64,000 nt of DNA from assembly GCA_911728435.2 (NCBI GenBank), contig OU452199.1, positions 16,316,860 to 16,380,859 of the forward strand, in the 5' to 3' direction. The notes under the pieces were generated by a model. It saw only the letters and a program-made list of their open reading frames with translations, made no database searches and was not told where the DNA came from. Made by a program: the position numbers and the translations under genes. Source of the DNA: Apoderus coryli. Lineage: Eukaryota > Arthropoda > Insecta > Coleoptera > Attelabidae. Positions within the stretch are counted from its first letter, which is position 1. Every line of letters begins with the position of its first letter. Shown one piece after another: positions 6,096-56,928 of this stretch.

Positions 6096-6721
6096 ATTAA
6101 TAATCAAAACAAGGAGACATTTTTTAATGGTCATTTGATAATCCCCTAACGTCTCTCTACTTATAGTAGAAGTATGTACAGTTCCTCGTGACTCACACTG
6201 TATATAACATAGGCATAGTTGATTAGAAATAAGTGTCAAATCTTTGTCAACCATATAAATATACTAGTTTTAAAAGATCACTTCAATATGTACTCGGAAT
6301 TTAGACCAAGAAATTCCACAAGACATTATACATTTTGGAAGCAACCACAAAAGCATCTTAATGATATTTGGCCGGATATAATATGCGGTAGAAAAAGGTT
6401 TAGAGTGCATTAGTAACTGATCCTGAACACAAATTTATTATTTGTTTATAGGAGGTATACGCCAGAAAAAAAGTTAGTTAGACGACCGCTCCAGCACACC
6501 GGAAAGCAGTATTTTGCAAAACACCGCGTTCCGGTCTAGTAATGTAAATTACCAAATAGTAATTTCAATTCAATTTTTCAGTCTTATACAAAAAATCTCT
6601 CCTTTTGAAAACAAAATAAAGTTGATAATATGATATAACAATCTAGATTTAAAAATATTCTTGAAATAAAAGTCGACCTCCACACAATAAATTTTAATAA
6701 ATAACTCCAACAAATTACATT

Positions 6722-6764
6722 TGTCACCATACATGTTTCGCAGCTCCGGGCTGCATCATCGTGT
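6722..6764 (-). ncRNA. Hammerhead ribozyme-like motif, damaged 5' side
   Basis: On the minus strand, GATGATGCAGC, a CCGGA loop, GCTGC, GAAAC and ATGTATGGTGAC repeat the stem II and 3' half of the intact copy at 7241-7281. The leading CT of CTGATGA and the stem I partner are replaced, so cleavage is doubtful. Confidence 0.6.
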
Positions 6765-7236
6765 GAAATTTTTTTTAATAATTATTTAGTCATACAAATT
6801 TTTTAGTCATAAAAAATTGTTGAAGTAAGTGTTGTTGTTAATGCGTTAAAATTAAAAATCAAAACTCACATCATTTATAATGTAAGTCTTAACAAGCTTT
6901 TACTTTTTATGACTAAATAATTATTAAAAAAATGTTTTCACACAATTATCAACTCATTGTGTGAAAACATTTTTTTAATAATTATTTAGTCATAAAAATT
7001 TTTAAGTCATAAAAAATAAAGGCTTGTTAAGACTTACATTAGACATGATGTGAGTTTTGATTTTTAATTTTAACGCATTAACAACAACACGTACTTTAAC
7101 AATTTTTAATGACTTAAAAATTTGTATGACTAAATAATTATTAAAAAAAATTTTCACACAATGAGTTGATAAATGAATTTCCCATAAATAATATGTACTA
7201 AATAAATGAATAACATAGCTTTTCGTAAGAATCTCT

Positions 7237-7283
7237 TATAACCACTGATGATGCAGCCCGGAGCTGCGAAACATGTATGGTGA
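7237..7283 (+). ncRNA. Type-I hammerhead ribozyme, complete core
   Basis: Stem I is ACCA (7241-7244) with TGGT (7278-7281). The core CTGATGA is at 7245-7251. Stem II is GCAGC/GCTGC (7253-7257 with 7263-7267) closing CCGGA. GAAAC spans 7268-7272. A two-base-pair stem III (AC/GT, loop AT) is followed by A7277 as the cleavage-site nucleotide. Minimal stem III is typical of hammerheads in PLEs and animal retrozymes. All core positions fit the consensus CUGANGA...GAAA...UH. Activity is inferred, not shown. Confidence 0.85.
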
Positions 7284-7379
7284 CAAATGCAATTTGTTGG
7301 AGATATTTATTAAAATTTATTGTGTGGAGGTCGACGTTTATTTCAAGAATATTTAATTATTCTACTCCACTTCGATATG

Positions 7380-7785
7380 GACTACTTCTTTCGAATCTAG
7401 ATTTCGATTACAAATATTTTGAAATTAAAATTAAAAGGTATATCAAATCAAACAAAATTCGGCACCTCCACAAAGTTTTTTTTTATTAAAATGGTTTTTA
7501 ATCATCGATGTTGGGCCCTTTTTAGACTTTTTGATTTTAATTTTAAGTGTACTGTGAGAGTGAGTGTTATTTATTGTGTAAGACTTGTTTTGGTCTGTAT
7601 TTTATAGATTCACCATGCACAACCTTTTTTTTAAATTTCCGACTGTATTTTTGTGACTGATGATGGTGGTATAGACCCTCAAAACATGTATCACCGTATC
7701 TGACGTTAAAAAAAAACTTTGATGAGGTGCTGTTTTGAGTAATATTGCACTCCACTGTGAGAATCGATTATTTCTTCAAATCAAA
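7380..7785 (+). repeat. Hammerhead-associated repeat unit with terminal box
   Basis: This unit holds the degenerate hammerhead at 7653-7695 and ends in TTGCACTCCACTGTGAGAAT then GATTATTTCTTCAAA (7742-7780). The same end is found at about 49485-49527 after another hammerhead-like motif, so the two belong to one family. The open frames across it show no domain. Confidence 0.55.
7653..7695 (+). ncRNA. Degenerate hammerhead ribozyme motif
   Basis: Stem I GTGA (7653-7656) pairs with TCAC (7691-7694). CTGATGA (7657-7663) is intact. Stem II GGT/ACC is short. The conserved GAAA reads CAAAA (7680-7684), so the essential G12 is lost. ACATGTA supplies stem III and the cleavage-side A. Confidence 0.6.
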
Positions 7786-14932: not shown

Positions 14933-15139
14933 CTGCGTAAAATAAAACAACTTTAGTTTTAAATATTTCCAAACTTTTATAATATACAAATTTATATTTC
15001 AAAATCACACGACATGTTTCGTCCACACAGTGGCTTTATCACTGTGTGGACGAAACATGTCGTGTGATTTTGAAATATAAATTTGTATATTATAAAAGTT
15101 TGGAAATATTTAAAACTAAAGTTGTTTTATTTTACGCAG
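14933..15139. repeat. Perfect palindrome, 100-bp arms and 7-base loop
   Basis: Bases 14933-15032 and 15040-15139 are exact reverse complements around GCTTTAT (15033-15039). I checked positions at both edges and several inside. The same 31-residue frame beginning MDETCRVILKYKFVYY therefore appears on both strands, which is a consequence of symmetry rather than evidence for a gene. The centre contains a hammerhead-like motif. Such perfect arms imply a very recent origin. Confidence 0.92.
15003..15051 (-). ncRNA. Hammerhead-like motif at the centre of the palindrome
   Basis: The minus strand gives CACAC, AG, TGATAAA, stem II CCAC/GTGG, AC, GAAAC, ATGTC and GTGTG. Stem I CACAC/GTGTG, stem II, GAAAC, the AC/GT stem III and cleavage-side C are all in place. 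The CTGANGA block is deviant (GTGATAA). It is probably a relative with a damaged core. Confidence 0.5.
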
Positions 15140-15701
15140 TTATAATGAATTTCCAACAAGTATCGGCTAATTCTATTCATCTATCAAAGTCAGTGGAAAT
15201 ATCTACTCTGAACGGCAGCCGGCAGTAACCTTGTAAAGTTTAATGGGTAGAAGACTCAGTCCACGATTTTTTAGACATACCGTAAATATGGCGATAATAT
15301 GACACTTTTAGAAAAATATAATGACAAAAATAACGGTTTTTATCGATCTTTTATGACTTTTTTTTTTGACCAGCTGACAACCATAATAGCATCTGTGATT
15401 ATTGCCACGCAGAATGCAGAGAGTAAGCCCAAAATCAAAATAAAATGTCGAAAATATTTTTTTTCTGTTCTAAGTAGTACAGCACCAATTTCGGAAATAT
15501 TAACAATTTTCTATTATAATAGTGATAGGACTTTGAAATTTAATCCACTTTAGTTGGCCATGATGACTTTAGAAAGCAAATGAATATGATACTTCAAACA
15601 TAATCAACAATTCATTGTTTGTTTAGTGTCCTTGAGTTTATGAATACTGTTTGAGTTCGTAGGTTTTAGGACAGGTTTAAAGTAAACACTCAATTAAAAA
15701 A

Positions 15702-15742
15702 GAGCGACGTTTCGCAGCTTTATTTGCCGCTTTTTCAAGCTC
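15702..15742 (-). ncRNA. Hammerhead-like motif of the left PLE copy
   Basis: Mirror image of the motif at 18687-18727. Stem I GAGC/GCTC, stem II GCGGC/GCTGC and GAAACGTC are seen. The CTGANGA block is degenerate (TTGAAAAA). Confidence 0.6.
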
Positions 15743-16295
15743 TGTAAAAGATACAAAAAAGCAACATGACAATTGAGTTTAAACCATTGACTAACATTAA
15801 ACAAATAACTAATTTCAAATTAACATCAATTCAAAAATTATAAACAAACAAACAAACAAAAACATAATAAAATCTAAAACCTTCACTATACCTCTTCTGT
15901 TACAAGTGTGTGATAATTACGATATTATTGGAGAACTTTGGTAAGAACATAATGGCAATAGAATTATTATTAAATTTGGTTGTCTCGTGTTCCACCAACT
16001 CGTCAAAATTTAAAACTGTTAAAATAAAATTTACATTGTATTCTATTTATCTTGGGAGGTATAGCGTTTTTATTTTTTTATTTTTTACAAAAAACATAGT
16101 TCATTTCTGCGCTTAAGGGTTTTTTTCCTTTACTTTTCCTTTTTTATCATTTTTTATTTTTATACAAACAAACAGAAATTAACCTATTTTAATTGACATG
16201 AAATGCGTATACAGGTCGTCTCTCGAACATAAAATACTTCTAATAAATACTATTCTAATTGTTATTGTGTCTGTGAACTTTTTAAACAATATTAA

Positions 16296-17123
16296 CTAAT
16301 GAGAGAACATAGGAGAAGTATATTTGGTGAGGGAGTTTTGTTGGTATTTATTTATCAAGTTAATGTATACATTGCTCAAGCCCTGGGTATCTGTTCTTAA
16401 GTTAACGCAATCCGAAAGCTTAATATGAACCATTTCACTAATGTTCCTCTTTTTGTAATTCACCTCTCTATCCAATATTTTTACCTTGTCAAATAGAAAA
16501 TTGTGACCATTCTCAAAATGGTGTATGGCAAGGGCAGTTTTTTCGGGTTTGCACTGGTTCTGGTTCTTACAGTCAGATTTATGCTGCTTCACTCTGCTCT
16601 CCAGACACTGTCGAGTCTGTCCCACATAGCATTTTCCGCATTCACAAGGAATGGTATATACTAAATTAGATTGTTTTGCATGAGGTGTTTTATCCTTTAA
16701 CCGTGTATATATTGTGTTTAAGCTTTTTATATTGTAAAAAGCTAATTTTATATTTGTATCCTTAAAACAGTGTTCAATTTTGTGAGATAAACCCGCAACA
16801 AAAGGAAACTTGAAATATTTTTTATTGGTGTTATTTACCTTCGTGTTACATGGTGAATTGGTTCTTTTTTGGTGGTATAACTTAATGCTTTGGTTGATAA
16901 AGGAGGTGGGATAGTTATTTTGGTGTAGTATGTTCTTAATTTTTGTTAAGTTTTCAGAGTAATACCTCTCATGACTCAATTTATCTGCTCTGTACAGTAC
17001 GGCATGTATAACGGCCAACTTTTGTTGCGTAGGATGGTTCGAGTAATAATTCAAAATTCTGCCCGAACTTGTAGGTTTGGTATACCAATTTGTCACGAGA
17101 AAATTCTCACTGTCTCTAGTCAC
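16296..17123 (-). CDS. PLE protein fragment: RT tail plus GIY-YIG endonuclease (left arm)
   Basis: This is a 275-residue frame, open upstream to the palindrome centre, where IPFLDILVTRD precedes the first Met. Residues 1-120 are the RT thumb region (NWYTKPTSSGRILNYYSNHP, then AVIHAVLYRADKLS). The segment around 135-170 links to the endonuclease. The GIY-YIG domain covers about 150-235: LVYTIPCECGKCYVGQTRQ, then the arginine of CLESRVKQHKSDC, a linker with cysteines, and AIHHFENGHNFLFDKVKIL. In PLEs the endonuclease nicks the target and primes reverse transcription. The catalytic RT core is lacking, so the product could not mobilise the element alone. The protein is identical to the right-arm copy. 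Confidence 0.9.
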   Translation of the reverse strand: MTRDSENFLVTNWYTKPTSSGRILNYYSNHPTQQKLAVIHAVLYRADKLSHERYYSENLTKIKNILHQNNYPTSFINQSIKLYHQKRTNSPCNTKVNNTNKKYFKFPFVAGLSHKIEHCFKDTNIKLAFYNIKSLNTIYTRLKDKTPHAKQSNLVYTIPCECGKCYVGQTRQCLESRVKQHKSDCKNQNQCKPEKTALAIHHFENGHNFLFDKVKILDREVNYKKRNISEMVHIKLSDCVNLRTDTQGLSNVYINLINKYQQNSLTKYTSPMFSH

Positions 17124-17305
17124 TAGAATGTCAAGAAAAGGGATTGACCGATTAGACTCTATTTCTGTTGTAAATTGTAACTGTGTGTGATAACCATTGA
17201 AATATTCAACAATATTTTGAGAAATATTTCAATGGTTATCACACACAGTTACAATTTACAACAGAAATAGAGTCTAATCGGTCAATCCCTTTTCTTGACA
17301 TTCTA

Positions 17306-18133
17306 GTGACTAGAGACAGTGAGAATTTTCTCGTGACAAATTGGTATACCAAACCTACAAGTTCGGGCAGAATTTTGAATTATTACTCGAACCATCCTAC
17401 GCAACAAAAGTTGGCCGTTATACATGCCGTACTGTACAGAGCAGATAAATTGAGTCATGAGAGGTATTACTCTGAAAACTTAACAAAAATTAAGAACATA
17501 CTACACCAAAATAACTATCCCACCTCCTTTATCAACCAAAGCATTAAGTTATACCACCAAAAAAGAACCAATTCACCATGTAACACGAAGGTAAATAACA
17601 CCAATAAAAAATATTTCAAGTTTCCTTTTGTTGCGGGTTTATCTCACAAAATTGAACACTGTTTTAAGGATACAAATATAAAATTAGCTTTTTACAATAT
17701 AAAAAGCTTAAACACAATATATACACGGTTAAAGGATAAAACACCTCATGCAAAACAATCTAATTTAGTATATACCATTCCTTGTGAATGCGGAAAATGC
17801 TATGTGGGACAGACTCGACAGTGTCTGGAGAGCAGAGTGAAGCAGCATAAATCTGACTGTAAGAACCAGAACCAGTGCAAACCCGAAAAAACTGCCCTTG
17901 CCATACACCATTTTGAGAATGGTCACAATTTTCTATTTGACAAGGTAAAAATATTGGATAGAGAGGTGAATTACAAAAAGAGGAACATTAGTGAAATGGT
18001 TCATATTAAGCTTTCGGATTGCGTTAACTTAAGAACAGATACCCAGGGCTTGAGCAATGTATACATTAACTTGATAAATAAATACCAACAAAACTCCCTC
18101 ACCAAATATACTTCTCCTATGTTCTCTCATTAG
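17306..18133 (+). CDS. PLE protein fragment: RT tail plus GIY-YIG endonuclease (right arm)
   Basis: This is the exact mirror of the minus-strand frame at 16296-17123, with the same 275 residues. The frame is open upstream to 17223, giving YFNGYHTQLQFTTEIE before the first Met, which belongs to the RT domain just after its catalytic site. The GIY-YIG signature, its arginine and the following cysteines are unchanged, so neither copy has drifted since duplication. A bicistronic or hairpin transcript across both arms would be fully double-stranded and could feed RNA interference; that is an inference from the geometry only. Confidence 0.9.
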   Translation: MTRDSENFLVTNWYTKPTSSGRILNYYSNHPTQQKLAVIHAVLYRADKLSHERYYSENLTKIKNILHQNNYPTSFINQSIKLYHQKRTNSPCNTKVNNTNKKYFKFPFVAGLSHKIEHCFKDTNIKLAFYNIKSLNTIYTRLKDKTPHAKQSNLVYTIPCECGKCYVGQTRQCLESRVKQHKSDCKNQNQCKPEKTALAIHHFENGHNFLFDKVKILDREVNYKKRNISEMVHIKLSDCVNLRTDTQGLSNVYINLINKYQQNSLTKYTSPMFSH

Positions 18134-18686
18134 TTAATATTGTTTAAAAAGTTCACAGACACAATAACAATTAGAATAGTATTTATTAGAAGTATTTTAT
18201 GTTCGAGAGACGACCTGTATACGCATTTCATGTCAATTAAAATAGGTTAATTTCTGTTTGTTTGTATAAAAATAAAAAATGATAAAAAAGGAAAAGTAAA
18301 GGAAAAAAACCCTTAAGCGCAGAAATGAACTATGTTTTTTGTAAAAAATAAAAAAATAAAAACGCTATACCTCCCAAGATAAATAGAATACAATGTAAAT
18401 TTTATTTTAACAGTTTTAAATTTTGACGAGTTGGTGGAACACGAGACAACCAAATTTAATAATAATTCTATTGCCATTATGTTCTTACCAAAGTTCTCCA
18501 ATAATATCGTAATTATCACACACTTGTAACAGAAGAGGTATAGTGAAGGTTTTAGATTTTATTATGTTTTTGTTTGTTTGTTTGTTTATAATTTTTGAAT
18601 TGATGTTAATTTGAAATTAGTTATTTGTTTAATGTTAGTCAATGGTTTAAACTCAATTGTCATGTTGCTTTTTTGTATCTTTTACA

Positions 18687-18727
18687 GAGCTTGAAAAAGC
18701 GGCAAATAAAGCTGCGAAACGTCGCTC
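18687..18727 (+). ncRNA. Hammerhead-like motif of the right PLE copy
   Basis: Stem I GAGC (18687-18690) pairs with GCTC (18724-18727). Stem II GCGGC/GCTGC encloses AAATAAA with one G-T pair. GAAAC (18716-18720) and GTC follow. The catalytic CTGANGA is represented by TTGAAAAA, so at least two core bases deviate. Hammerheads in PLE terminal repeats are documented as a family trait. Confidence 0.62.
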
Positions 18728-19089
18728 TTTTTTAATTGAGTGTTTACTTTAAACCTGTCCTAAAACCTACGAACTCAAACAGTATTCATAATCAACAATT
18801 ATGACAATTGTAAATACCTACTAATTAGTAGTACCTATATTAAATTATACTAACGAAGACTATCTAAATTTGTTTATTATTTATGGAGAATATGACAGAA
18901 TGATACCAAGAACGTGTGCTACATTTGCTGCCAAATACCCGGAAAAACACAAACCATTACCTAAATAGTACCTACATAATTTCGAAAGTTTGAGTCTGCG
19001 ACAAATTTCATGCACTGACAACGAAAACGTATGATACAAACTTATCTAAGGTTAACTCATAAAAAAATTACTTTAAAAAATTTTCCAAA

Positions 19090-32057: not shown

Positions 32058-35000
32058 ATGGATGGTGAAGATGATGAAGAATTCCATATGGGACGGCATG
32101 GGGTAAATAGATCACGAACTAGTATATTATACGCTTTAATTAAAAGAATTTCTAATAAATATTTATACCATGCACTAACTGAAATTTCCTATATTCTTGT
32201 ATATAAGTAATAACAGTTATTATAACATGCAAAAATTTACAAAAGAGAATGGTGCATACTTTCGTAATAAAATTATGATTTCATTAATAATATTTTTTCT
32301 GTCGTTCATGCAGGATATCTCAATTTGTTTTATATTCTTGGCTATCCTTTAATCTCGTCGCATAGTTTTTCATAGTTCGAAAGTAATTTTCTTGGGATCA
32401 GTGACAATTAGGAGTGCTCCATTCTATATGATGTTACTTGCAGTTTGCAAATAAATGTTTTGTACCTACATAAAACCTCCTTATTTTTATTTTCCCTGTA
32501 CGGGAAAGTAAAACTACAACTAGGTACATGTATACTAGATACAGTATATGAGTATGGAAAATCAGAGCTGGAATTGTAGCTTTTAGAAATTCCACAAAAT
32601 TTTTTACGGTTGAATGAGGTTGAACGTATAACCGATGATAGATAGAATCTTCTACCACTTCACCAAAACATTGTGTATTGTGAACGCGCCAAAAAAAAGA
32701 TTTTGAGATAAAGACGAATATAAGCATTTTGTTCCCTGACACGATTAAGACCATGTTCAGATGGAAGTTTGTCTGTCTGTGCGTGTGATGGTGTGTATGT
32801 ATGTGTGTCTGTATGTATTCTACCACGATAGCGCCCAAACGCTTTAACCAATTGAGCTAAATTCTGGTATATGAGTTTGGGGCAGTCCCAGGATGAAGCC
32901 ATTAGATTTTGGTTGAATTAAGCTCTGTGATAGGGGTGGACACATCCGCTAAATTTTCACATATCAGTAGGGGTCGCGTGATGCATCATTTTAAACTTTT
33001 GATATTTGCCTCCAAAATTCTCGAGAACATGGCGTTTAAAATGTCACCAGTGAGTTAGTTGGAACGTATATATATATATAACAAATAAAATACAATATTT
33101 ATTAACAGGTCTCTGTTGGGTCATTAGTGAGGCGTTCGCTTCGCATTTGGAAGGTTACGGGTTCCAGTCCTAGCTCTGGCAATACTTTTTTTGTAATTTT
33201 TGATTAAAGTAAAAGTAATAATGTCCATTGGCTTAAAAAAATTGCAAGTTAGAATTATTGGAAAATGTATAAATCTACAGCGGATGTAAAGTTGCAAATT
33301 TCGCTAAAAACAAGTTAAACTTTTCGGTTTAACAAAAAGCAACCAAAGCTTTAAAATGGCGGTTAACCAAATACAGCATCTAAGATAGATTTATATCAAA
33401 ACAAATTAGTTAAACTAAAATTTCATCTTTAACTAATTCCAATTTTAATATGATATCTGGGCTCCAGTGCAATATTAATGCTAATACTACTAGCCTTGGT
33501 TTTAATTAACTGCGATTAATTACTAATCTAATTTTTCAAGGTTGGATTATCTTTTCATACTTACAGAATCGCCGGCAGAGTATCGGAACGTATGCGCCAG
33601 TTGAGATCGAATACAAAGGCTTCAAATTCCTGATTACCATGAAGCCGACAGAAGCAACCATTATAGAATACATTCAAGAATTAAAGAAACATCATGTCAC
33701 TGCAGTGGTAAAATTGTGCGAGGAGGGATACAAAACAAGGCTGCTTGAAGAAAATGGAATAATTGTCTTAGATTTATCATTTGAGGATGGAAAGTCACCA
33801 CCGAATGAAATAATAGATGAATGGTTTAAGGTAATTTAAGTACGAACGATTAATTATTACAAGGAAAAATAATTTTGTGCGGACAAAAATTAAATTATTT
33901 TTTCTTTTATTATATTTACGGACACACATAATTTGTTTTAAAGTGTACATTATTATATAAATAAAAAGGCGTCTACTCCACAATACAAACTTCTTGTAAA
34001 TAAATCATAAGATAACTAAACCATACATGTTTCTAAATTATAAAAATTTCATCATCAGTGGCTGTAATTTCAAGAATTAGGGTGTAGGTTCTTAAAATTT
34101 ATATAACAATTTTTTGTTTCTTTTTTTGTGGTAAGTTACAAATTTTTCAAATAACACCACCTCTATATTATATCCTAATTTTGATTTTATATATTATATT
34201 ACCTGTATAATTAAACGTAATTACGAATTTGTGTTCACCATTCAAAATGTCTCTGAACGTTAATTGCCACTGATTTTTATAGTCTCGAAACATGTATGAT
34301 TTACTTATTTTATGATTTAATTACAAGAAGTTTGTATTGTGGAGTAGACGCCTTTTTATTTATACGTTATCAACTCCTCGCCGGCATGGATTATTAAAAG
34401 AAAAAGAAAAAAAATATATATATAAATTATTATGTGGGAAAATATGTAGAATATAAAATTTTGTTCGATTAAGAGGTTTCCAATATATCTTCTTTATATT
34501 TGGTTAAAGGAAATATATCGCAATTTCAACCATGAACCGATATAGAGTAAAGCAAAATATCAAAAATTATTTCAAAAATCGATATTTGTGATTCTGTTAT
34601 TCGTGATTATTTCGGTGTTGAAGATCGCTCATCATCGTGTCTAGTGTTGGCAATAGGACATAATATAGTTGCACTTCTCATTCGGCTATCGTTTGTAAAC
34701 TTTGTTTCACCGAGCATATTGCCTCAAACACTAGATGTTGCCACATACATCTTGTTGATAAATTATATTTTTCTGTGTATGCGATTCCCATTCCCAGCTC
34801 GTAATAAATAATTGAGACATTTCGACTTGAAAAATCTATAACTTATAAGGCTTACATGTTTTTTCCTATTTTTTTTTATGAAGTTTAACAGATCAAATTC
34901 TAGGGGAAACTTTTTCAAAACACATGCTGGCTGTGATCAAGAAAAAAACACTTTCTCTGTCAAACTATGAGATATCAGATAAAGAAAAACAGCAGTTGTT

Positions 35001-42740: not shown

Positions 42741-42767
42741 GGAAATTTGGGTCACACTGCCTGCCGA

Positions 42768-42806: not shown

Positions 42807-42849
42807 GAAACAAATTTCCAACATAACTTGAAGTCTTTTTACATTATGT

Positions 42850-43573
42850 AACAAGCAATTCATTAACAACATTGACTTTGATAAAGAACTACGACTAATT
42901 GTAGTTATTTTTTTTTTTCAACTGAAGTAAAACTGACTGAAAAACTGGCGATTACACAGCCTTTACTTTAGCAACACCCAGTGAATCTCTACTTTTCAAA
43001 TGTTGGTCGTAGTCTTTGAAGTGTGATAAATGCACATACTGCGACCGTTTAGACACTAATGAAAAGAGAAGAAACATCTTGACGCAAACAAGGAACGATT
43101 GATGCGAAAATTTGCAACAACAAAGGAAGAATTATTGCACAAAATTGATACATACTTTACTTCTTGATGTCGTACCTGCTCATCTACGTAGAAAAACCTT
43201 CAAGTACCATTTTTGGCATAAAATTTCGACTATCGGTTGATCTGTATACAAAACCACCGCGAGCTGAAAAATCCAAGAACGACTTTGCTACTATTTTCAA
43301 GCAACGATTGGAAGATACTCATGAAGAAAATAATGAAACATTCATGCTGATCGAATATACTCGTATACACGGTATGATCGTCGATGTAACCGTCAAATTG
43401 AAAAAAAAAACACTATAAAATATGCATTACAATCCAGTAAGGAAGAAAGAACGTTCGTCAAAGATACAGAGGGAAGGGGGAAGACTCATACACGCTGATT
43501 ACAAGCATCAACGATCACGATAAATGTGTACGCAGAAGTGTTCGAAATCTAAGATGAAACCTGTACATTTGTA
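42850..43573 (+). repeat. Inverted repeat block A (left)
   Basis: Reverse complement of 46168-46891. The two blocks are equal in length (724 bp) with only scattered substitutions. It contains an 84-residue frame (43164-43418, RLSVDLYTKPPRAEKSKNDF) that is conserved in the other copy. I do not recognise the protein; conservation may simply reflect recent duplication. Confidence 0.85.
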
Positions 43574-43789
43574 CCGCCTCGCCTCCTACCAAGTGACCAA
43601 AGCTGTAAGGAATGCAATGTAGGAAATTTACCTTGTACACGTTGAAAACAACCTCAAAGTTGGAGCTCGATATATAAAATTTGTTAATTTACTCTTTTCA
43701 TTGCATATCTTTGTCAGATTCTTCTAGAATTTTCTATTTTCGAATATACTCGAATATGTGTTAATTTTTGTGATGCAAAACGTAGTAGT

Positions 43790-44071
43790 TTCCACGTATT
43801 TTTATTTCTAAAATCAAAATCTCTCCCCCTAAATATGGATTACTTCGTTAAATTTGTGAAATTCTTCCATAATTTTCTATTCTTAAATATTGTAGTTATT
43901 GGAGTAACGCCCAAAATTTCTTGTTGAGTTTAAATTCGTGAATACCATAGCAGTGCCTCAAATTTAAATGTTAACTAGGATTGTCAGATAAAGATTTTTA
44001 AGGGAGACAATCTTATTAAAAATTGATCTAAATTAAATATTATATCCTCAAACCTCATTCCTATAGAAGTT
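43790..44071 (+). repeat. Inverted repeat block B (left)
   Basis: Reverse complement of about 47043-47325. Shared landmarks include TCTCTCCCCCTAAATATGG and CCTCAAACCTCATTCCTAT. It abuts the mariner terminal repeat. Confidence 0.8.
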
Positions 44072-44076
44072 ATATA

Positions 44077-46163: not shown

Positions 46164-46167
46164 TATA

Positions 46168-46891
46168 TACAAATGTACAGGTTTCATCTTAGATTTCGAA
46201 CACTTCTGCGTACACATTTATCGTGATCGTTGATGCTTGTAATCAGCGTGTATGAGTCTTCCCCCTTCCCTCTGTATCTTTGACGAACGTTCTTTCTTTC
46301 TTACTGGATTTTAATGCATATTTTATAGTGTTTTTTTTTTTCAATTTGACGGTTACATCGACGATCATACCGTGTATACGAGCATATTCGATCAGCATGA
46401 ATGTTTCATTATTTTCTTCATGAGTATCTTCCAATCGTTGCTTGAAAATAGTAGCAAAGTCGTTCTTGGATTTGTCAGCTCGCGGTGGTTTTCTATACAG
46501 ATCAACCGATAGTCGAAATTTGATGCCAAAAATGGTACTTGAAGGTTTTTCTACGTAGATGAGTAGGTACGACATCAAGAAGTAAAGTATGTATCAATTT
46601 TGTGCAATAATTCTTCCTTTGGTTGTTGCAAATTTTCGCATCAATCGTTCCATGTTTGCGTCAGGGTGTTTCTTCTCTTTTCATTAGTGTCCAGACGGTC
46701 GCAGTATGTGCATTTATCACACATCAAAGACTACGACCAACATTTGAAAAGTAGAGATTCACTGGGTGTTGCTAAAGTAAAGGCTGTGTAATCGCCAGTT
46801 TTTCAGTCAGTTTTAGTTCAGTTGAAGAAAAAATAACTACAATTAGTCGTAGTTCTCTATCAAAGTCAATTTTGTTAATGAATTGCTTGTT
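46168..46891 (-). repeat. Inverted repeat block A (right)
   Basis: Mirror copy of 42850-43573. The frame corresponding to the left block is at 46578-46243 and here runs 27 residues longer because of a frame difference near its end. Coordinates of the two blocks sum to a constant at both ends, so there is no net indel. Confidence 0.85.
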
Positions 46892-47042
46892 GAATTTTTG
46901 TGATGCCAAAGATTTTTTTAGACTCTCAAAAAATGGTCTCAAACACAACTATTGTACCAATCGCAACAGTTTTCAGGAAAATATCGTTTTATTTTTTCAC
47001 CAGTGTGTCTATGATGCTTTTAGAATGTTAAAAATAAAACCA

Positions 47043-47325
47043 AACTTCCATAGGAATGAGGTTTGAGGATATAATATTTAATTTAGATCAATTTTTAATA
47101 AGATTTTCTCCCTTAAAAATCTTTATCTGACAATCCTAGTTAACATTTAAATTTGAGGCACTGCTATGGAATTTAAACGCAACAAGAAATATTGAGCGTT
47201 ACTCCAATAACTACAATATTCAAGAATAGAAAATTATGGAAGAATTTCACAAATTTAACGAAGTAATCCATATTTAGGGGGAGAGATTTTGATTTTAGAA
47301 ATAAAAATACGTGGAAACTACGTGG
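47043..47325 (-). repeat. Inverted repeat block B (right)
   Basis: Mirror copy of the left block B. It lies distal to block A, whereas a simple palindrome would place it next to the mariner. Confidence 0.8.
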
Positions 47326-47329
47326 AAAA

Positions 47330-48200
47330 GACGTATTTTTATTTATCAATTCTGAAAAAGATAATGGAAATAATAATAACTTTAACACGTTTTATATATC
47401 GGAAGCCATTTTTGAGGCTGTTTTGAACGTACTTAAGAAAAATGTGTTGCTACTGCTACTGCCAGCAGCATACGAATTAATGAAACTGACTCTAGTTCAT
47501 CATTCTGACATAACCATTCTCATGTTTAATATTAGTTATGCCAGATTGTTCCTATAATTGGTAAATTAATTTAGAATATTTATATTTTTTGTTTATGTAA
47601 ATGTTTACTTTTTTAATGTACCCATTGCATTGGAATGTACCTATATAGGAACTAATTTCTGCAAAAAAAATCTCGAGTAAATGCTTTGTCTAAGATTTTC
47701 TGTACGAGTTTTTGTTTCGTAATACAACTCCTGTGATAGAAAGACGTACACGCTCCGTAGGATTAGTACAAGCTAGATGGACTGTATCAGTAAAAAATTC
47801 TAAAAAAAAAACTAGAAAATCGAAATTATCACAATTTATAAATAATGACTCACTATATGTATGTTGAAGATGCTTAATGTTATTAGGTACTTTATCTTAA
47901 ACATGTTGTGAATTATACATTTTTGATCAGTATTTCACAAAACAAAGAATAAATATGAATTAAATAATAATAATATTTAACACATACACAATAATTGAGA
48001 GCTTCATGTAAATATCTATGTGAATGTCTCGAATACATTTAATAAGAGGATGGATGGAAGAAGATTTCTTGCCTAATCTTTAACTACCTCTATATAAATG
48101 AAATGGCATCATTTTATAGAACCATTGTTAATTGTAGAGTTGCAAAGTAAAAAAGTGAAGTGCTAATAGCCAAAATTTTAATACAGGGTGTGAATTTTCG
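47330..48200. other. AT-rich upstream region of the chitin-binding gene
   Basis: No exon was recognised. The region just before 48206 should hold the promoter and 5' untranslated sequence, but I see no clear TATA/initiator pair. Confidence 0.4.
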
Positions 48201-48205: not shown

Positions 48206-51200
48206 ATGATATCATTCAAATATTTGTCATTTGCCGTTGTTTGTGGATATTTGGTTCATTTTGTGTTTTGTGTAAGTTTAGCTGTCTTTCCTTTTACTGA
48301 TAATTTTATGCTATGCAAAATATATAATATTATGCAATATACCTAATATAAATTAATACATTAAAAAATATTTTGAGAAATGTTCTTTGACATTTTCTGA
48401 AAGATGTCCTAGAAAACTACATTTTCTGATTAAAGAGGATATAACAAAATAGCAAAATTAATAACGACTGCTCCACAAAATTCTTTATATATTGTTGATA
48501 GGGGGAATTTAGCCAAACATGTTTCGGAATAATATTATTCCATCTTTAGTGATATTACATACAACATCACATAAACATAACAATATGGTAATTTGAAAAA
48601 GTAGTCCATTCTTAAGTGGAGTTGTAATATGGTTTTCAGGCATGGAATTTAAACATCTATAAGTACATGCTAAAATATTAACATAGTCAATATCAAAATA
48701 TTATAATCTGTACCATTTTGTGAAAAAGTGTTCGAACTTAAAATAAAATTTCTTTAAAATTTATTCTAATATTAATAACTATATAATTATAGAATTAAAG
48801 ATATTAATTATCACAGCAAGTGACAGACAAGTTTCGGACGTATAAACCCTCATCATCAGTCGAAAACAAATCAGTCAAGAAAGGAATCGGTGTGGCACAA
48901 TGAACAGTTGAACATAATTCCCTGTGTCGTCATCGAGGTTCCCATAGGTGAAAATTCTGGATTTTTATTTTATTATCAAATTAACATATAGTTCTTAAAT
49001 ACTACATTATTAATTAAACTAAACTCAAAAAGTAAGTCTTCACATTTAAAAAAAATTGAGACTCATATAGAGGAGGTTTGAATGAAAAGGGCAAATACCC
49101 CAGTTCTTGAATAACATCTTTTGGTCTTAAATATGGTGGATTGTGTAATGAAATTCAAATCAAAGTCCTGGGATATTTGCCCTTTTCATTCCAACCTTCT
49201 CTAATTCTCATTGTTTCTACATGTGAAGACTTGGTGATTAGTTTAATTTGAAGTATTTAATAACAATATATGTTAATTCGATAATAGAATGAAAATCCAG
49301 AATTTTCACCTCGATGACGACAGAATGGGAATTATGTTCAACTGTTCGTTGTTGTGTTCCTTTCGTGGCTGATTTGTTTTCGACTGATGATGGGGGTTTA
49401 TACCTCTGGAACATATCTCTGACGTGATCTTAATGTGATGAAAATAAAGTTGTTTTGTGGAGGTGACGTTAGTTGCTTTATCATAGATATTGCACTCCAC
49501 TGTGAGAATGGATTATTTCTTCAAACTATAAATATTAACTGACTACAAAAATTTTTAAATGTATTAAAGCCAACCAGAAACTCAATAAGTTATTAATAAT
49601 ATTTGACTTAATTTATTATTTAGAGCGGTATATTTTTATATAGGTACCATTTTTTTACTTAAATACCTATAAAAATATGATTGATTATCCAATGCATATT
49701 GAAATGTATTAATGATGATAATATTGGATGCATTAGCAAACTATGATTCTATAATTTCACTAGAAGTCCAGGACATCAAAGTTTTTCGTGGACATTCGGT
49801 ATATAATTCCCATGCTCTCCTAACAAAAAATCCTAGTAATTGAGTTACATACCTCGTAGTTTTCATTGTTCTTTAATAAATTACTTAGCCGTTTTTATTT
49901 TTACAATCGATATTAAAATAAATACCAGTTATACAAATAATATTTATGAGATATTGATTGATATCTCTCAAATATGTATAATTAAAATGCTGCACTCTAC
50001 CTTACTTCCGGTAATAACAAAAATATAATATACTTGAATGTCAAAGCCGTATTCATCGGAAATAGCCGACTATTCATTTGACCATAGTCCGTCCATTGTT
50101 CTGATATTACAAAAATGTGTAAAATATTTTTCCCTTCATAATATAATTTAGTAAATACGGATTTACACACGGTTGATTGTCCTAATTTACACGTTTTTTA
50201 TGCGAATTGCCGAAGACGAATAATCAGATTCGGAGCATAAGTGGCTATTGTATTTGATTGCAACAGATTTGTATACAGAATCGAAATTATTTTGTTGATA
50301 CAACGGATTCTATTTCATTATCAATGATACATTTTTCAATTTATTTATTTCCTTTAGAAATCTATAAACATAAGATATAATCTCGTCTAACTCATTTAAA
50401 ATTTAAATTGCAGAAAACACTGTAAAATCTTGCGAAAACTTACACACACCAGTGGATGGATGATAGAGGCAGCTAACTAACCTTAACAGAGCTGTCGTAT
50501 TCAATAGTTTTATATATTAAAAATACTAAATGAACTTTTAATATATAGATACGACAAATAAAGTTCAGTGGTGTACATAACAGGTCATTCCATGTCATGT
50601 TTCATCCATTGTCACATATCGATGATATAATTCTATTTTATTGCGGTTTAACAGCGCCAAACACTCATCTGAAGCATCAATTCGTTGAGTTTTCGCATAC
50701 CCAAATGTTCGTCTAAAATGGTAAAAACACTACCATCTGATATCTTTACAATGTCAGCTAGCTTTTGCACCTTCAATTTGCATTTTTTTTTTCAATAACA
50801 AACGTTGCTTCACACAAAATGCTATAACTTACGAATCAATAGTCAGATTGCTCTCAAATTTATACACGTATTGTTTGAAGGTTGGTATTAAATAAAAATC
50901 ATATGGAAAAAATTGTAGTAACGCCATCTATGTGTCATCCTACGGACTTATTGAATGACCTAATATTATTATTAAGACCTAGACATGAAAATACAAACAA
51001 ATAAAGAAATGGCAAAACATTTCTTTATTTGTTGTTCCTTGTGACCCTATATACATTTATTTCGCCTTTCATCCAATATAACTGTCATAACTCAAAATGC
51101 TTTATACTTTTATAAATAATTTAATACAAATTAATTTTTTGACAGATTCTAAATTACGATTTTTAAATTATCAGAATAATTCTTTACATAACAAAATGCA

Positions 51201-54200
51201 ATAGTACAATAATTATTTAAACAATATTTAATAATATAACACTCCTAATATTATACGGCTCAGGATTTGAAAAGCACTAATTAATCCTTCTACCATCTCT
51301 ACCCATACCAACCAGATCAGCCAGATGTACATTCAATATCTAGATCATAAACCTTTTAACGATACTTATATTTGATTGTTATAATATTGTAATCAATTTC
51401 AGACTAGACCAGCAACATCTTTGAATTACTATTGACCAAATTAAACAATATAACAATTTAAAATAACCCGATTATCAATATCGGAATAATTTATTCGTTA
51501 TAGGTTTTTAAAAATTTATTTTATTGCTTTGATCTTTGAAAATGTTGAAATAAATTTCCTATTTAATTAATTAAACATCTGTAAAATATCTCGGATATTG
51601 TCTCGTTATCACGCTAAATAATTTGCCCTCTGTTTATTTTAGTTATAAACCAGTCTCACACCCTATAACTAAAATCTTCAGAAGAAAGAGGCTGAACTTC
51701 CTTTTTACCTCTAAAAGTCCAATATTTGTCTTTCAATAAAATATTATTAAAAACTATTTTAATCTTGTATTGTTTCTTGAACCTTGTTAAAATTTTTGAC
51801 TAGTTTCTTTTTGTTGGGATAAAGGTTCTGTTTTAAAACGGGAAAATTTTCTTTGAAATATTTTTCTATTTCATGTTACAGTAGGTACTACGTTTCGGCT
51901 AGTATGCCTTCTTCAGGTACATTTCTTTAAAATCTACAATTTAAAATTAAATCTAGATTTAAAATAAAACAAGTAATAGGTACATATACAAAACATCACT
52001 AGAACATTCAGTGTAAAGAGGTGATCTTAAACATAACAACGTACAAAATTACAGATATTCTTAATTATTATGTTTCATTTTTTGTTTTTATTTTTTTTAC
52101 CTTACCAACATCGTATTTTTTTTATAGAACAAATATGTATATATATATATAAACTAACCGACCCTAAATACAGAACAGAAACATTAAACTAAGCCAAGTC
52201 TGCATTATATAAGACCAACTACCCAAAAAAATTAGTCCAAAAAATATTCAAAAAACGCATTCAAAAATTTGACAATGACCATAACACTAACCAGAATAAA
52301 ACCAACCCTCTAAAAAATTATGCTTCAATACCTTATATACATGGTCTATCAGAAAATCTCTGTAACAGATTAAAAAAACATAATATAACAATTTGTCACA
52401 AAAACACAAATACATTCCAAGCTCAAACTTAATAAATAAAATAACTATGGATAGAAAAAACTTCGAATACAACCCTCGTAAACGACGTGGTAGTGTTTGA
52501 TAAAAATAGTAATATAAAAACAAATCTATGTATACACATTAATGAAATAAAAATTTCATTCAAACAAAAGTACCCACTAAAAGTGGGGTACACCAAAATA
52601 TTTGTTCCATAAAAAAATACGATGTTGGTAAGGTAAAAAAAATAAAAACAGAAAAATGAAACATAATTAAGAATATCTGTAAATTTGTACGTTGTTATGT
52701 TTAAAGATCACCTATTTACACTGAATGTTCTAGTGATGTTTTGTAAGTGTACCAATTACTTGTTTTATTTTAAATCTAGATTTAAAATTTTAGAAAAGAA
52801 ATGTACCTGAAGAAGGCATACTAGCCGAAACGTAGTGCCTACTGTGACATGATTAAAAAAATATATTTTCTTTAAAACAGACCGTTTATCCCAAGAAAAA
52901 GAAAGAAGTAGTCAAAAATTAAAAACTATTATGAAAATATTTTCCTCGCCATATTTCCTGAGCAAATATAGTTAAAATATATAAAAAATAACTCGTACAA
53001 CATTTCTACTATTTTCTGAATCTAATTTAACGTTTGTAATAATGCTACAAAATGAATTTGTGTCCGTAAATATAATATAATGAAAAATAACTATGTGGCA
53101 CTACTAAAACTACTAAAAAAGTTTGTATTAATGTATCTGAAATCGTAAGTTTACGTGTTTTCAACCTTTTGAGTATCGTTCGTATTTTCCTTGTTTTCTA
53201 ATTATGAAATTCAGGATACATATGAACATACAACAACAGCTGATATATTTTAAGTTGGATTTGCAATTCCGGAAAGAGTGATGTGGTTTTACTTGTGCCT
53301 TAATCCAGTCCTGGACTTTTCCACAAAAAATACAAAACGCTTTTATTCTTATTATTTTTAGAATGAATTACCTAAACTGTATATTTATTTTTACTTTGTA
53401 GGACAAATCATCTCATCTAAAGCCATTTCGCCTCAAAAAAAAAATAACAAAGCGTCCAATATGCGTTGGGCTTGATCCAACATAGGTACATGACAAATGA
53501 TTTCTATGGCCGAATTGTAACATGCTCATATTAACCCAAATATGTCCTTTCATTTCACATTGAATGTCATCATCACAAGGTCTATCACCGTCGAAATATA
53601 ATCTAATTCGTTTACCCTAAATGTGAAATAGTGACTCTTACACCAAAAGTAATTTAAATGGACACGCAATAATTATTATGTCTTCTTTGTAATCCATGGT
53701 ATATATTATTTTTTACATTTACATTAAAACGTATATGAATGAGATTCCCAGGACTTTTCCTTTTATGTACATAATGCTGTTGAATTTAGGTGTTTTTAGT
53801 GATACTTACATAATTATTATTTAATTTATTGTGAAGAATGATTATGCAATTACAAATCAGGATCACATCATCCGTAATTGTTTGTTAATTATGTCTGTGA
53901 AAAGATTAAGAATTATATTAGATACCCAGTAACCTTTATTTTAACACGAATATATCAAACGTCCAATATATTGCAGCAACTTGACGGATATATAGCAGGT
54001 CAAGACTATCCAATCTACAACGAGGTTCCACAAGGATTATCATTCAGATGTGAACAAAGATTACCAGGATATTATAGTGATCCCGAAGCACAGTGTCAGG
54101 TTAGTTACATAAGTTAATAGTTTGGGTTATATTCGACCTCTCTTCTAAAAATACTAACTTATCGTATAATCGTCTATTTTATGAAATAGTTTCAAAAACA

Positions 54201-56928
54201 GATATTAAATTTAATTTGAATAGACTGATCAATTTTTAAAATTGTACGATCGAATATAATAATCTCGAGCCTCTATATGCATTATAAGCAAACAAACCTA
54301 ACAATCTTAGATCAACAAAATGATCTTGGTGTAATTATATCGGCCGTTATAAAATGTGAGATTTTTATATTTTGTAGTAATAAATAAAGAATAGACTATG
54401 GCACTTGCTCGAGAAAGCTTTAAAACCAAGACTCAAACATATTTGAATTGTATAGTCGTTGATCAATGGTTTAATGGCGATTCTCTAAGTTTTTTCATAA
54501 GCTTAGTAATATTTCCTATGCAAAATCTAATTTGACAACACTTTATGATGGGCGACATCGAGCAAACTTTGTACCTACATATTTCTATAAAACTTTGTAA
54601 TATTATTAATCATCACATATCTTTTCGAGCTAACTTAAAATACGACTCATAAATAAATAAAAAAATCGGTTGTTTCCTGGCAAGATATAATATAATAAAA
54701 AATAACCTGCGTAACGAAACATAATTTTAATAATCATTATTATAATTGTATTATTTCATTAATTCCAATAAACTAACGTAACAAACAAAGTACTTCATTA
54801 AAAAATTAGAAAAAAAAGTATTGTCAGAGCTGGGATTCGAAACCATAACCTTCCGCATGCGAGGCGAACGCTCTATCAATGACGCCTCAAAACCCTCTTG
54901 GAAAATATTGTATTCTAATTGTAATAAAAGATATGTTCCAACTACCTAACTCGTGAAATTTTAAATGCAATTTTCTCAAGAATTATAGGGGCAAATATCA
55001 AAAGTGACCTATCGCTGGAAAGCAGATAAAAAATGCTTTGAAATGATGTATCACTCGACCCTTACTGCTATTTGAAAATTTAGCGGTTGTGTCCACTACT
55101 ATCACAGGGCTTAAGCAATTTCAACCAAAAACTAATGGGTTCATCCTACGACTGCACCAAAGTCATATACCAAAATTCAGCTCAATTTGTTAAAGCGTTT
55201 GGGTGCTATCGTGGAAGAACACATACAGACATACCATTACACACACATACACATAGACAGACTTCCACCTGGAAATGGATTTAATCGTCTCAGGGAACTT
55301 CAAAACGGTTATATTCGTCTTTATCTCAAATTTTTTTCAGCGCGTTTACAATACTTTCCCTGTGCTGGAAAGTAAAATTTAGTAAGGTGGGTTCTTTATC
55401 TAATAGTTAACTTGCTGATATCTTAGATAAATAGATTTCCAAGGAGAAAATCAGAAATAGGTAGGTATGTATTTTCCTCAAAATTTAACAATATACGGCA
55501 TCTAATATGAAAGATGTTTTACTTGAATTATTATTCACCAAAGACATTTCGATAAAATAATTATCGACAGATCATCGATAATAATGCGGAATTTACAGAA
55601 AACTTTTCTTTATTTCTGTGCTTTGTATACCAACTTCAAAATATTTCCATAATTAATTCTTTAAAGTGAATATCACATGACGTTCTGTGTTTTGTTCCTA
55701 TACCAAATGAACTCGGCATGGTCATTTTTAATTAATTTTTGTAATAAACCAACCGAAATTACTGTGTAGAATACAGCTTTCTCTTTCGAAAGATGGTGTA
55801 TGGCGTATCCCAAGCCTGTAGAAAATTCACTTTAGCCGACGCGACGTAGTATGAGAGCTGTGATATATAAATTAGATCTAATTGAACAGCCAAAATTTAT
55901 CGAAAAACTTGGAAAAATCTTACTTTTTTTATTAAAAAGATAGTATGGCAACGTCATTGCTTGAAGTTTTCACTGCAATAAAACTTTGTACGATGGCGCA
56001 GAATTTTTAAATTCATTCGTTAGCAAATAATGCCGAATTAACACATTTTAGAAGGAAAAAGAAAACAGTTCTGTGGGTCAGTTATCATGCATATTTTATT
56101 TTAGCTAATGATTATTTGTTATTTTTGCTTTGACTGTACAAACAAAAATAAATCACACAAATAAAAAGGCATCTACTCCACAATACGAACTTCTTGTAAT
56201 TAAATCATAAAACAACTAAACGACACATGTTGCAAGATTATAGAAATCTCATCATCAGTTCAGAGACATTTTTGAATGGTGAACACCAATTAGTTTAATT
56301 ATGTAGGTCTGAAATATATAAATAATCGAAAATTAGGATATAATATGGAGATGGTATTAATAGATTTACTTGTAACTTACCACATTGTGGAAAGAAAAGA
56401 AACAAATTTTTTTTATATAAACATTAAGAACATTTGGATATCTGAATTAGTATGTAAATAATTGAAGTTATTTGTTTTTTGCGCATTCTTCAAATTGAAA
56501 ATTAAAACTAAAACTACGTATTGCGGAGATGACGCCTTTTTATTTGTACGTTATCAACTCCTCGCCAGTATGGATAATGATCTAAAAAAAAATCATCTTA
56601 AAACTTGGTTTTGACCAAGAAGAAAAAAACAACTTTTAGGGAAGATCAATAGAAACTAACAGCCATCTATTCTGAAATACAAGAAATCAGATCCCATGTA
56701 TCTTACTTTTTTTCGTTCCTACAGGTATGGCATTGGTGTCTTCCGAACGGACAAAAATTCAGCTTCCTTTGTCCAAATGGCACTGTGTTTAACCAATTCA
56801 GCAGGGTATGTGACTGGTGGTTTAATGTTGATTGCCAATCTACACCAAACTACTATGGAGTTAACGATGATCTATATAGAGTTCCCCCTCAAAACCAGTT
56901 CAATCAACAGTACAAAGAACAACAATAG
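48206..56928 (+). CDS. Secreted protein with one chitin-binding type-2 domain (CPAP1-like)
   Basis: The exons are 48206-48271, 53977-54099 and 56725-56928, joined in phase 0 into 130 residues. Residues 1-22 (MISFKYLSFAVVCGYLVHFV plus FC) form a signal peptide. A short spacer, QLDGYIAGQDYPIYNEVPQG, leads into a six-cysteine domain with spacing C-x14-C-x5-C-x10-C-x12-C-x7-C, including CLPNGQKFSFLC and the aromatic CDWWFNVDC. This is the peritrophin-A/ChtBD2 pattern that binds chitin through three disulphides. The tail is short and Gln/Asn/Tyr-rich. One domain, short linkers and no mucin-like tracts fit the cuticular proteins analogous to peritrophins, group 1, which act in exoskeleton or tracheal cuticle. 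The signal-peptide exon lies 5.7 kb from exon 2, so that link rests on phase, donor quality and signal-peptide logic. Confidence 0.85.
48512..48553 (-). ncRNA. Hammerhead-like motif with one core change
   Basis: Minus strand: TCA, CTAAAGA, stem II GGAATAA/TTATTCC, GAAAC, ATGTT, TGG. Stem I TCA/TGG, stem II and GAAAC are good. Core G5 is A (CTAAAGA instead of CTGAAGA), which should weaken or abolish cleavage. Confidence 0.6.
48824..48864 (-). ncRNA. Hammerhead-like motif, left arm
   Basis: Minus strand CTGATGA, a GTTTATAC-centred stem II of poor quality, GAAAC, TTGTC. Core consensus holds; stem I pairing is weak. Confidence 0.5.
49378..49425 (+). ncRNA. Hammerhead relic, right arm
   Basis: CTGATGA at 49383, then GGGGGTTTATACCTCTGGAA in place of stem II and GAAAC (GGAAC). 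The catalytic A13 is lost. Confidence 0.5.
49531..51799. other. AT-rich intron sequence
   Basis: Part of intron 1 of the chitin-binding gene. No further exon or repeat boundary was recognised. Confidence 0.4.
51885..51920 (-). ncRNA. Type-I hammerhead ribozyme, complete
   Basis: Minus strand: stem I GTAC/GTAC (51920-51917 with 51888-51885), CTGAAGA (51916-51910), stem II GGC/GCC with a six-base loop, GAAAC (51896-51892), then GTA with cleavage after A51889. All core positions fit; stem III is the minimal AC/GT. Confidence 0.87.
52193..52432 (+). pseudogene. Penelope-like reverse transcriptase, C-terminal fragment
   Basis: An uninterrupted frame of 79 codons plus stop. It reads SALYKTNYPKKLVQKIFKKR, and later NYASIPYIHGLSENLCNRLK then KHNITICHKNTNTF. 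The IPYIxGLSExLxxxLKKxNI block is diagnostic of the region between RT thumb and GIY-YIG endonuclease in PLEs (compare FPFVAGLSHKIEHCF at the copy near 17620). Upstream RT motifs and the endonuclease are missing. A trace of KTSNTTLVNDVVVFDK after the stop may be the decayed start of the endonuclease. Confidence 0.8.
52803..52838 (+). ncRNA. Type-I hammerhead ribozyme, complete
   Basis: Stem I GTAC (52803-52806) pairs with GTGC (52835-52838, one T-G pair). CTGAAGA spans 52807-52813. Stem II is GGC/GCC (52815-52817 with 52824-52826). GAAAC spans 52827-52831, followed by GTA. It is the inverted partner of 51885-51920. Confidence 0.87.
52916..53970. other. AT-rich intron sequence before exon 2 of the chitin-binding gene
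   Basis: No feature supported apart from the splice acceptor ATTGCAG at 53976. Confidence 0.4.
54822..54898 (-). other. tRNA-Ala-like segment of the repeat
   Basis: Minus strand: GTCATTGATAGAGCGTTCGC, CTCGCAT as anticodon loop (CGC), GCGGAAGGTTATGG, then TTTCGAATCCCAGCTCTGAC. The anticodon arm, T loop TTCGAAT and B box are recognisable and better kept than in copy 1. The D arm is short. Confidence 0.68.
54822..55378 (-). repeat. Dispersed repeat with tRNA-like 3' end, copy 2
   Basis: Reverse-orientation copy of the repeat at 32480-33190, with the same blocks in the same order on the minus strand, beginning TTACTTTCCAGCACAGGGAA and ending in the tRNA-like part and a T run. It lies in intron 2 of the chitin-binding gene. 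Confidence 0.78.
56163..56590. repeat. Foldback element homologous to 33964-34390
   Basis: AAAAAGGCATCTACTCCACA at the left and a diverged inverse near 56515-56550, then ACTCCTCGCCAGTATGGATA. The interior also resembles the PRL-1 intron copy. The left arm keeps a degenerate hammerhead; the right one is lost. Confidence 0.7.
56219..56264 (-). ncRNA. Degenerate hammerhead motif
   Basis: Minus strand CTGATGA, good stem II AGATT/AATCT, then GCAAC for GAAAC and G at the cleavage position. Two critical changes make it inactive. Confidence 0.55.

Follow-up and report, generated by a model that had tools for sequence, protein, structure and literature searches.

Inverted pairs of Penelope-like terminal repeats in the beetle Apoderus coryli: one tail per pair and a probable two-ended insertion

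Penelope-like elements (PLEs) constitute the third class of eukaryotic retroelement. Here, we analyze inverted pairs of their pseudo-long terminal repeats (pLTRs), and the hammerhead ribozyme motifs associated with them, in 64,000 nucleotides of contig OU452199.1 of the beetle Apoderus coryli (the whole stretch, hereafter the window, with positions counted from its first letter) and across the same 428-Mb genome, to which all genome counts refer. The closest described systems are the Penelope/Poseidon-type PLEs of A. vaga (PMC3846280) and the PAc element of Anolis (PMC11167929). They have in common with the elements studied here a GIY-YIG endonuclease together with a reverse transcriptase (RT), a pLTR hammerhead near the start of the open reading frame (ORF), short target duplications, head-to-head inverted pLTRs with some longer inverted structures, AT-rich targets, and an optional tail of 30–40 bp that extends the 3′ side of one of the inverted pLTRs. 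The A. vaga report describes inverted, mostly head-to-head pLTRs with target duplications and an optional 31-bp tail at one of them, and favours self-priming on antisense RNA (PMC3846280). A 2024 biochemical study reaches target cutting and first extension, and calls the later insertion steps unvalidated (PMC11167929).

In A. coryli, the two arms of an inverted pair end at different fixed sites, and we consider it probable (roughly 0.8) that the pairs arose when PLEs inserted by target-primed reverse transcription from the two ends of a single break.

Paired arms, tails and target sites

The U1 insertion is a head-to-head pLTR pair without coding sequence (6651..7393), enclosed by an 11-bp target duplication, AATCTAGATTT, at 6640–6650 and 7394–7404. 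Its right arm ends at a position that we term site A and has a tail; its left arm ends at site B and has none. Arm termini are sharp and of these two kinds, with site B mostly 40–44 nt before A (extremes 32 and 48, the low values occurring where the border is not fixed by a duplication). A 28-mer of the U1 hammerhead motif at 7245 has 107 exact copies in the genome, compared to 0 for a reversed control. Among the 100 listed of these 107 places, neighbours within 12 kb lie minus-then-plus in 19 of 20 cases and plus-then-minus in one (7.8 kb apart), and there are no same-strand neighbours within that distance. All 19 pairs and 41 of the 61 remaining single places were fetched in listing order (the window's own aside; 20 left unfetched), and 22 of these 41 'single' places proved to be pairs whose partner ribozyme is changed or missing. 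A second set comprised 15 loci, about 1 kb upstream only, from 41 places matching the tail-bearing end. The 75 loci and the window unit make a studied set of 76, with 53 divergent pairs in which both 3′ ends are recognised and 23 loci without. For the coding PLE, a search with the window's frame initially gave 3801 candidates; the 129 matches that were scored include 35 divergent, 7 same-strand and 0 convergent neighbour relations within 12 kb. An earlier note on this DNA had proposed a large population of units, mostly lacking coding sequence, that tend to be arranged head to head; the analysis supports both a large, dispersed population without coding sequence and the head-to-head arrangement. 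PLE protein matches occur in just 3 of the 76 loci.

In the U1 family, one arm ends at A, with a tail, and the other at B, without one, in 50 of 53 pairs (p=2.8e-12 versus one half). The three exceptions of the first classification, L009 ('++'), L016 ('--') and L072 ('+?'), were all set aside after inspection: the left 'end' of L009 is no terminus and continues into an ORF, another element cuts the tail of L016 after ~10 nt, and the right end of L072 lies beyond the fetched stretch. Because these three are not assessable, the count becomes 50/50 pairs with one tail each, none with two and none without. It comprises 40/40 assessable pairs (of 42) in the ribozyme-chosen set 1, which tests one tail against two and against none, and 10/10 (of 11) in set 2, which tests one against two alone because it was chosen by the tail-bearing arm. 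The rule also holds in 6/6 pairs of the coding family, whose tail is 25 nt long and whose ends are unrelated to those of U1; this sample consists of the ends of 5 genome pairs and the window pair, with one more candidate pair and single copies left out. Two further window pairs, U2 and U6, have one tail each, while U4 and U5 stand outside the tail count. The total is 58 assessable pairs (50 + 6 + 2) with no exception.

At one locus, L032, the true left end, following a template jump, has a tail and a 13-bp duplication (by eye) that the script missed. At L032:3540-3730, the arm contains two copies of the tail and of the beginning of the ORF, broken at site B, which gives the impression that the polymerase pauses or changes template at this point.

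Target duplications of at least 9 bp were found in 34 of 44 pairs, compared to 12 of 865 shuffled flank pairings. In the enlarged set, 45 of 53 pairs have such a duplication (9–15 bp, the commonest length being 12 bp), and the coding-family pairs have duplications of 12–14 bp in 6/6 cases, with controls reaching at most 6. In most pairs a single target duplication encloses both arms, so that each pair is one insertion, and the suggestion that pairs are dimers of a unit is not supported. With the tail arm placed on the right, 45 sites yield the consensus AA(C/T), an AT-rich duplication (12% G+C, ~12 bp) and (G/T)TT; the counts are A 30 at -3 and 32 at -2, C 18 and T 15 at -1, T 20 and G 18 at +1, and T 29 at +2 and 34 at +3. 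This target is near-symmetric, and each strand would therefore be cut before (G/T)TT, leaving 3′ overhangs of ~12 nt. In the biochemical study, the purified PLE enzyme prefers ATT and cuts and extends both strands (PMC11167929), which is consistent with this consensus.

Partner arms resemble each other more closely than permuted partners do, with a mean difference of 0.027 versus a permuted mean of 0.081 and a lowest value of 0.059 in 2000 permutations (37 pairs); another locus is often equally close to an arm because young copies are near-identical. Rare variants are common to both arms in 9 of the 37 pairs (random partners: mean 0.5, maximum 3 in 50 shuffles), and in one coding pair a 1-nt deletion is present in both arms and absent from the other ten.

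The PLE pair L057:3459-4054 (G000:C11:21596795-21601822) has an A-to-G hyperediting signature in both arms. In its left arm, 39 of 147 reference adenines read G, with T or A as the 5′ neighbour in 33, and, where the two arms overlap, all 17 A-to-G sites on the right are also G on the left (p=1.2e-11); no other arm among the 136 compared has a similar A-to-G count. The pattern looks like RNA edited by an ADAR-type enzyme (A-to-I) and then reverse-transcribed, although a previously edited source copy might have passed it on.

We read the U1 units as pLTR-only copies of a coding PLE. The U1 tail holds ATGGACTACTTCTTTCGA, the start of the frame MDYFFRMNNASQ.. in L009, where the tail continues into a 299-aa open frame (MDYFFRMNN..) whose end matches the start of L031. 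In the latter locus, a PLE protein match precedes a U1 3′ end, and a later insert separates the two. The tails of other window families and of L020 vary at third codon positions and keep MDYFF (by eye), and the tail of the coding family terminates at ATG. The units would be free of coding sequence because a monomeric RNA that is reverse-transcribed from its ORF start contributes hardly anything beyond the leader; several arms have in common the 5′ end TTGTTGTGTGAAA, ~280 nt before the ribozyme (by eye), which is perhaps the 5′ end of that RNA. RT and GIY-YIG in one ORF (in the window's coding family), a pLTR spanning the ORF start with an optional short tail, and target duplication are all present, as expected of a PLE. 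The hammerheads thus belong to PLE terminal repeats, as had been supposed; the separate, dimerising retrozyme-like parasite of the earlier note gives way, since the unit is a PLE pLTR and coding PLE copies are likewise often paired head to head.

The coding PLE of the window forms a palindrome (15599..18800, including its target duplication) with 100% identical arms of 1569 nt at 15638–17206 and 17223–18791, their 5′ ends joined with 16 nt between, and with the duplication CATAATCAACAATT flanking both ends. The left arm has the 25-nt tail (15613..15637, minus strand), which ends in ATG in arm direction, and the right arm has none. A 310-aa open frame representing the 3′ part of the PLE frame with the GIY-YIG endonuclease (17201..18133, plus; mirror copy 16296–17228, minus) matches PF01541 with E=4.2e-5; its homologues carry RVT_1 and GIY-YIG, and genome copies of this PLE have open frames of up to 862 aa. 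An older inverted pair (15500–15594 / 20387–20481) lies around this young palindrome.

A probable two-ended insertion and its alternatives

Under the reading that we favour, the target would be an AT-rich, roughly palindromic site in which the enzyme cuts each strand before (G/T)TT, exposing 3′ overhangs of ~12 nt. Both overhangs would serve as primers for reverse transcription, with A as the start for one and B for the other, the same site never being used twice in the judged pairs. The two cDNAs would grow inwards until they halt, either somewhere along the RNA or where its 5′ end is reached; their heads would then be joined, in most cases with microhomology that is short or absent, and fill-in would create the target duplication. 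Head junctions are mostly direct, the overlap or gap being no more than 5 nt in 32 of 50 pairs. In the biochemical study, both target strands are cut and extended by the purified PLE enzyme, and synthesis begins at a pair of adjacent RNA sites between which the tail lies (PMC11167929). We infer that one RNA molecule, or RNAs of one source copy, serves both arms, and that each site is used once because the two subunits of a protein dimer play unequal roles. A stricter version, which we offer tentatively and would still bet against, is a concerted two-ended reaction on a single RNA, in which a symmetric dimer would cut both strands of the near-palindromic target and its two active sites would start ~25–40 nt apart and make one copy each. 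If so, the tail would represent the fixed spacing between two polymerases at work along a common template, and the edited L057 pair would be a natural barcode of the shared molecule.

Several points weigh against two-ended priming. The mechanism is read from genomic fossils of a single genome; the tail rule was tested deeply in two families, with two more represented by single pairs without clear duplication; the automatic classification gave three exceptions, which were dropped after inspection; and both the one-half null and the independence of loci are assumptions. In 23 of 76 loci, there is no second recognisable 3′ end. Among these, L030 and L057 have a second arm that is cut short, L034 and L043 have an inverted inner piece, and several resemble single-arm insertions with duplication (by eye), so that double priming would be common, not obligatory. 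The shared variants fit two RNAs of one locus as well as one RNA. In vitro, the two strands showed no difference in start site (PMC11167929), and the rule must therefore arise within single events. We also considered whether the arm with the tail trails the other and is shorter: the tendency seen in set 1 (26 of 36; Wilcoxon p=0.003) is reversed in set 2 (3 of 10) and may reflect ascertainment, set 2 being picked by tail-bearing arms.

One alternative, which we judge unlikely, is a retrozyme-like non-autonomous element whose ribozyme cuts multimers into monomers that circularise and are integrated by the PLE enzyme, the pairs being dimers. It would accommodate the many dispersed units without coding sequence and their palindromic stem III hammerheads, a type that is said to cleave as dimers (PMC7761336). 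Against it, the predicted cleavage site (111–119 nt from A; nearest ends 98 and 127) is the terminus of 0 of 17 short arms, a result on which we also rejected ribozyme-cleaved RNA as the template. The 17-arm list and the arm-length test leave out L020, L055, L059 and L064, of which the L064 tail arm, at 114 nt, comes within 3 nt of its subfamily's predicted site at 111, a point in favour of this alternative. The finding that, at the 100 listed places, no neighbours less than 12 kb apart lie on the same strand, the identity of the unit as a PLE pLTR and the same layout in coding copies likewise speak against a retrozyme, as do ribozyme mutants that insert normally in vitro (PMC11167929).

Self-priming or snap-back, in which a cDNA or antisense RNA folds back and is copied into an inverted repeat, was put forward for head-to-head pLTRs in the A. 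vaga work, which also describes palindromes at inverted junctions (PMC3846280). The window palindrome, with its identical 1569-nt arms and 16 nt between, counts in its favour. However, snap-back copies the same 3′ end and so predicts that both arms have the tail or both lack it, the opposite of what is seen in all assessable pairs; because self-priming requires equal 3′ ends, the one-tail-per-pair rule contradicts it here and is our reason for dropping it as quite improbable. Snap-back also leaves unexplained an outer target duplication around ends at different RNA positions.

Very improbable, too, is twin priming as in LINE-1, in which priming by the second DNA end takes place within the RNA while the first cDNA is still being made, and the arms copy different parts of that RNA. 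As in the present pairs, a single RNA is primed by two DNA ends and an inversion results, but here both arms copy the same stretch from fixed sites 25 to ~45 nt apart, and twin-primed LINE arms are not known to overlap as the PLE arms do here. Two independent insertions, a later rearrangement or an assembly artefact are hardly credible: the window contains a perfect palindrome, a structure that is difficult to assemble, but one target duplication surrounds both arms, the order is almost only divergent, the head junctions are mostly direct, and the arms are unequal and diverged in most loci.

Hammerhead motifs and other features of the window

The core CTGANGA..GAAAC occurs 9 times in the window, compared to 0.46 expected. 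In four matches (7245+, 34058-, 51916- and 52807+), the core is followed by a GTH triplet and by a stem III that is a palindrome, either ACATGT or ACGT; these are the four motifs previously listed as complete (7237+, 34020-, 51885- and 52803+), all of which keep these features. Out of 'about fifteen' hammerhead sites claimed, approximately six stand, namely these four and 15702/18687, which have a UUGAAAA core in place of CUGANGA and a hammerhead fold. At 6722, the left member of the first pair, the start of the core is lost; at 48824 stem II is poor, at 49378 GAAAC is altered, and 9757- has the appearance of the end of a coding frame (by eye). The five named pairs all face away from each other as described, with the minus copy left and the plus copy right. 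When stems I and II were also required, a strict descriptor returned 7245+ and 34058- from the window, whereas 300 shuffled versions of it gave no match. A wider descriptor returned 113 motifs (23 sequences) in 338 kb of fetched DNA, a number that is not a density because most are copies of one ribozyme-fetched family, and none in 20 shuffled sets.

The U1 hammerhead (7241..7281, plus) is a complete minimal type I motif with the stem III palindrome ACAUGU, stem II GCAGC/GCUGC, predicted cleavage after GUA and one extra base after A9. The left-arm hammerhead of U2 (34020..34062, minus) satisfies the core and stem descriptors. In the coding family, the hammerhead-shaped motif with the UUGAAAA core (18686..18728, plus; mirror copy 15701–15743, minus) has stem I AGAGC/GCUCU and stem II GCGGC/GCUGC, and its minimum-energy fold makes both stems. 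It combines C3-to-U with G8-to-A and is identical in 12/12 arms, keeping both stems though U3 and A8 replace the C3-G8 core pair. A C3G/G8C double change gives partial rescue in the biochemical study (PMC11167929).

Rfam release 15 returned no hammerhead family in the window, from the gathering threshold to E=10, and none in the 151 nt around the best motif up to E=10; its matches to microRNA families in the window are inverted repeats. Because the Rfam hammerhead models were silent, motifs were selected by core alone, ignoring pairing, which gave 19 motifs besides 96 U1-like copies, at least 4 of them mutated U1 copies and several interrelated. In these 19, stem II is paired at 79 of 95 positions (permuted mean 51, maximum 71 in 2000) and stem I at 68 of 76 (permuted mean 45, maximum 60). 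Most stem positions show several pair types, and the first stem II pair is nearly always G-C. A joint alignment of 12 hammerheads was excluded from the pair counts, short and long stem III types being misaligned in it. An extra base between A9 and stem II is present in 22 of 23 motif sequences, U2 being the exception. The earlier note had named two outcomes as telling against ribozymes: the first, a silent model search, literally occurred, while the second, missing conservation of core and stem pairing, did not, as the stems covary between families of the same genome. By sequence core and covarying stems, the window motifs are minimal type I hammerheads of PLEs. A stem III consisting only of a palindrome (ACAUGU or ACGU here) is the form described for PLE hammerheads and is expected to work as a dimer (PMC7761336, PMC6155905).

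Among the other pairs, U2 (33956..34395) has a left arm without a tail and a right arm with one (34365–34395, ATGGATTATT at its end), and its relative U6 (56152..56592) is likewise tailed on the right arm only; no clear target duplication was found in the flanks of either. U4 (48824..49525) has decayed hammerheads and a right-arm tail (GAATGGATTATTTCTTCAAA), its left end being not assessable. U5 (51885..52840) has near-identical hammerheads with an ACGU stem III and a 3-bp stem II, tails that are not assessable, and a decayed PLE-like coding remnant between its arms (by eye).

Two hammerhead-like motifs of another kind (CTGATGAG, 2-bp stem III, four-base loop) lie on the plus strand at 36411–36480 and 42640–42830 (36411 and 42774 of the earlier note); both fall within an apparent long stem I hairpin (by eye) and are nearer in form to classical type I motifs than the PLE hammerheads are. 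The window also carries PLE and other retroelement remains. A perfect 100-nt inverted repeat with 7 nt between (14933–15139) matched an Rfam microRNA model below the cut-off, probably just as a hairpin. Nested inverted repeats (42850–47430; up to 724 nt, 97%) surround a transposase-like frame (44521–45639, minus) with weak DDE_3 and Tc3-type HTH matches, and one repeat family, itself with inverted copies, occurs near both window ends (750–2001 and 61053–63206).

Comparison with known systems

An exceptionless rule in 58 assessable pairs defines the finished product that a mechanism is required to yield and counts against self-priming. It also offers assays a yes-or-no readout, one start at each site in paired products. 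Two fixed RNA start points, one per side, would provide a concrete, testable picture of PLE movement, and the pLTR-only reading would explain the coding-free majority of ribozyme-bearing copies without a separate parasite.

Compared to the A. vaga and Anolis PLEs, the pairs described here differ in having a tail on exactly one arm in every assessable pair, a near-symmetric target, and evidence that the template source is common to both arms. In the passages of PLE literature that were searched, there was no mention of a rule this strict, of the near-symmetric target or of a common template source. Small PLE-associated hammerheads that cleave as dimers were reportedly described by Lunse et al. 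in 2017 and by Cervera and de la Pena in 2014. As presented in PMC7761336, they are, like the motifs here, minimal type I hammerheads with a palindrome-only stem III, dispersed in non-coding DNA and pLTRs; features of the A. coryli motifs are U3/A8 in place of C3/G8 in one coding family (12/12 arms) and the extra base after A9 (22/23 motifs). Metazoan non-LTR retrozymes, finally, resemble the units studied here in that they are short, AT-rich, non-coding repeats with type I hammerheads, for which dependence on PLEs has been suggested (PMC7229834). Those retrozymes are described there as tandem repeats with circular RNAs, whereas the A. coryli units, with no same-strand neighbours within 12 kb among the 100 listed of 107 places, form inverted pairs and are pLTRs of a coding element.

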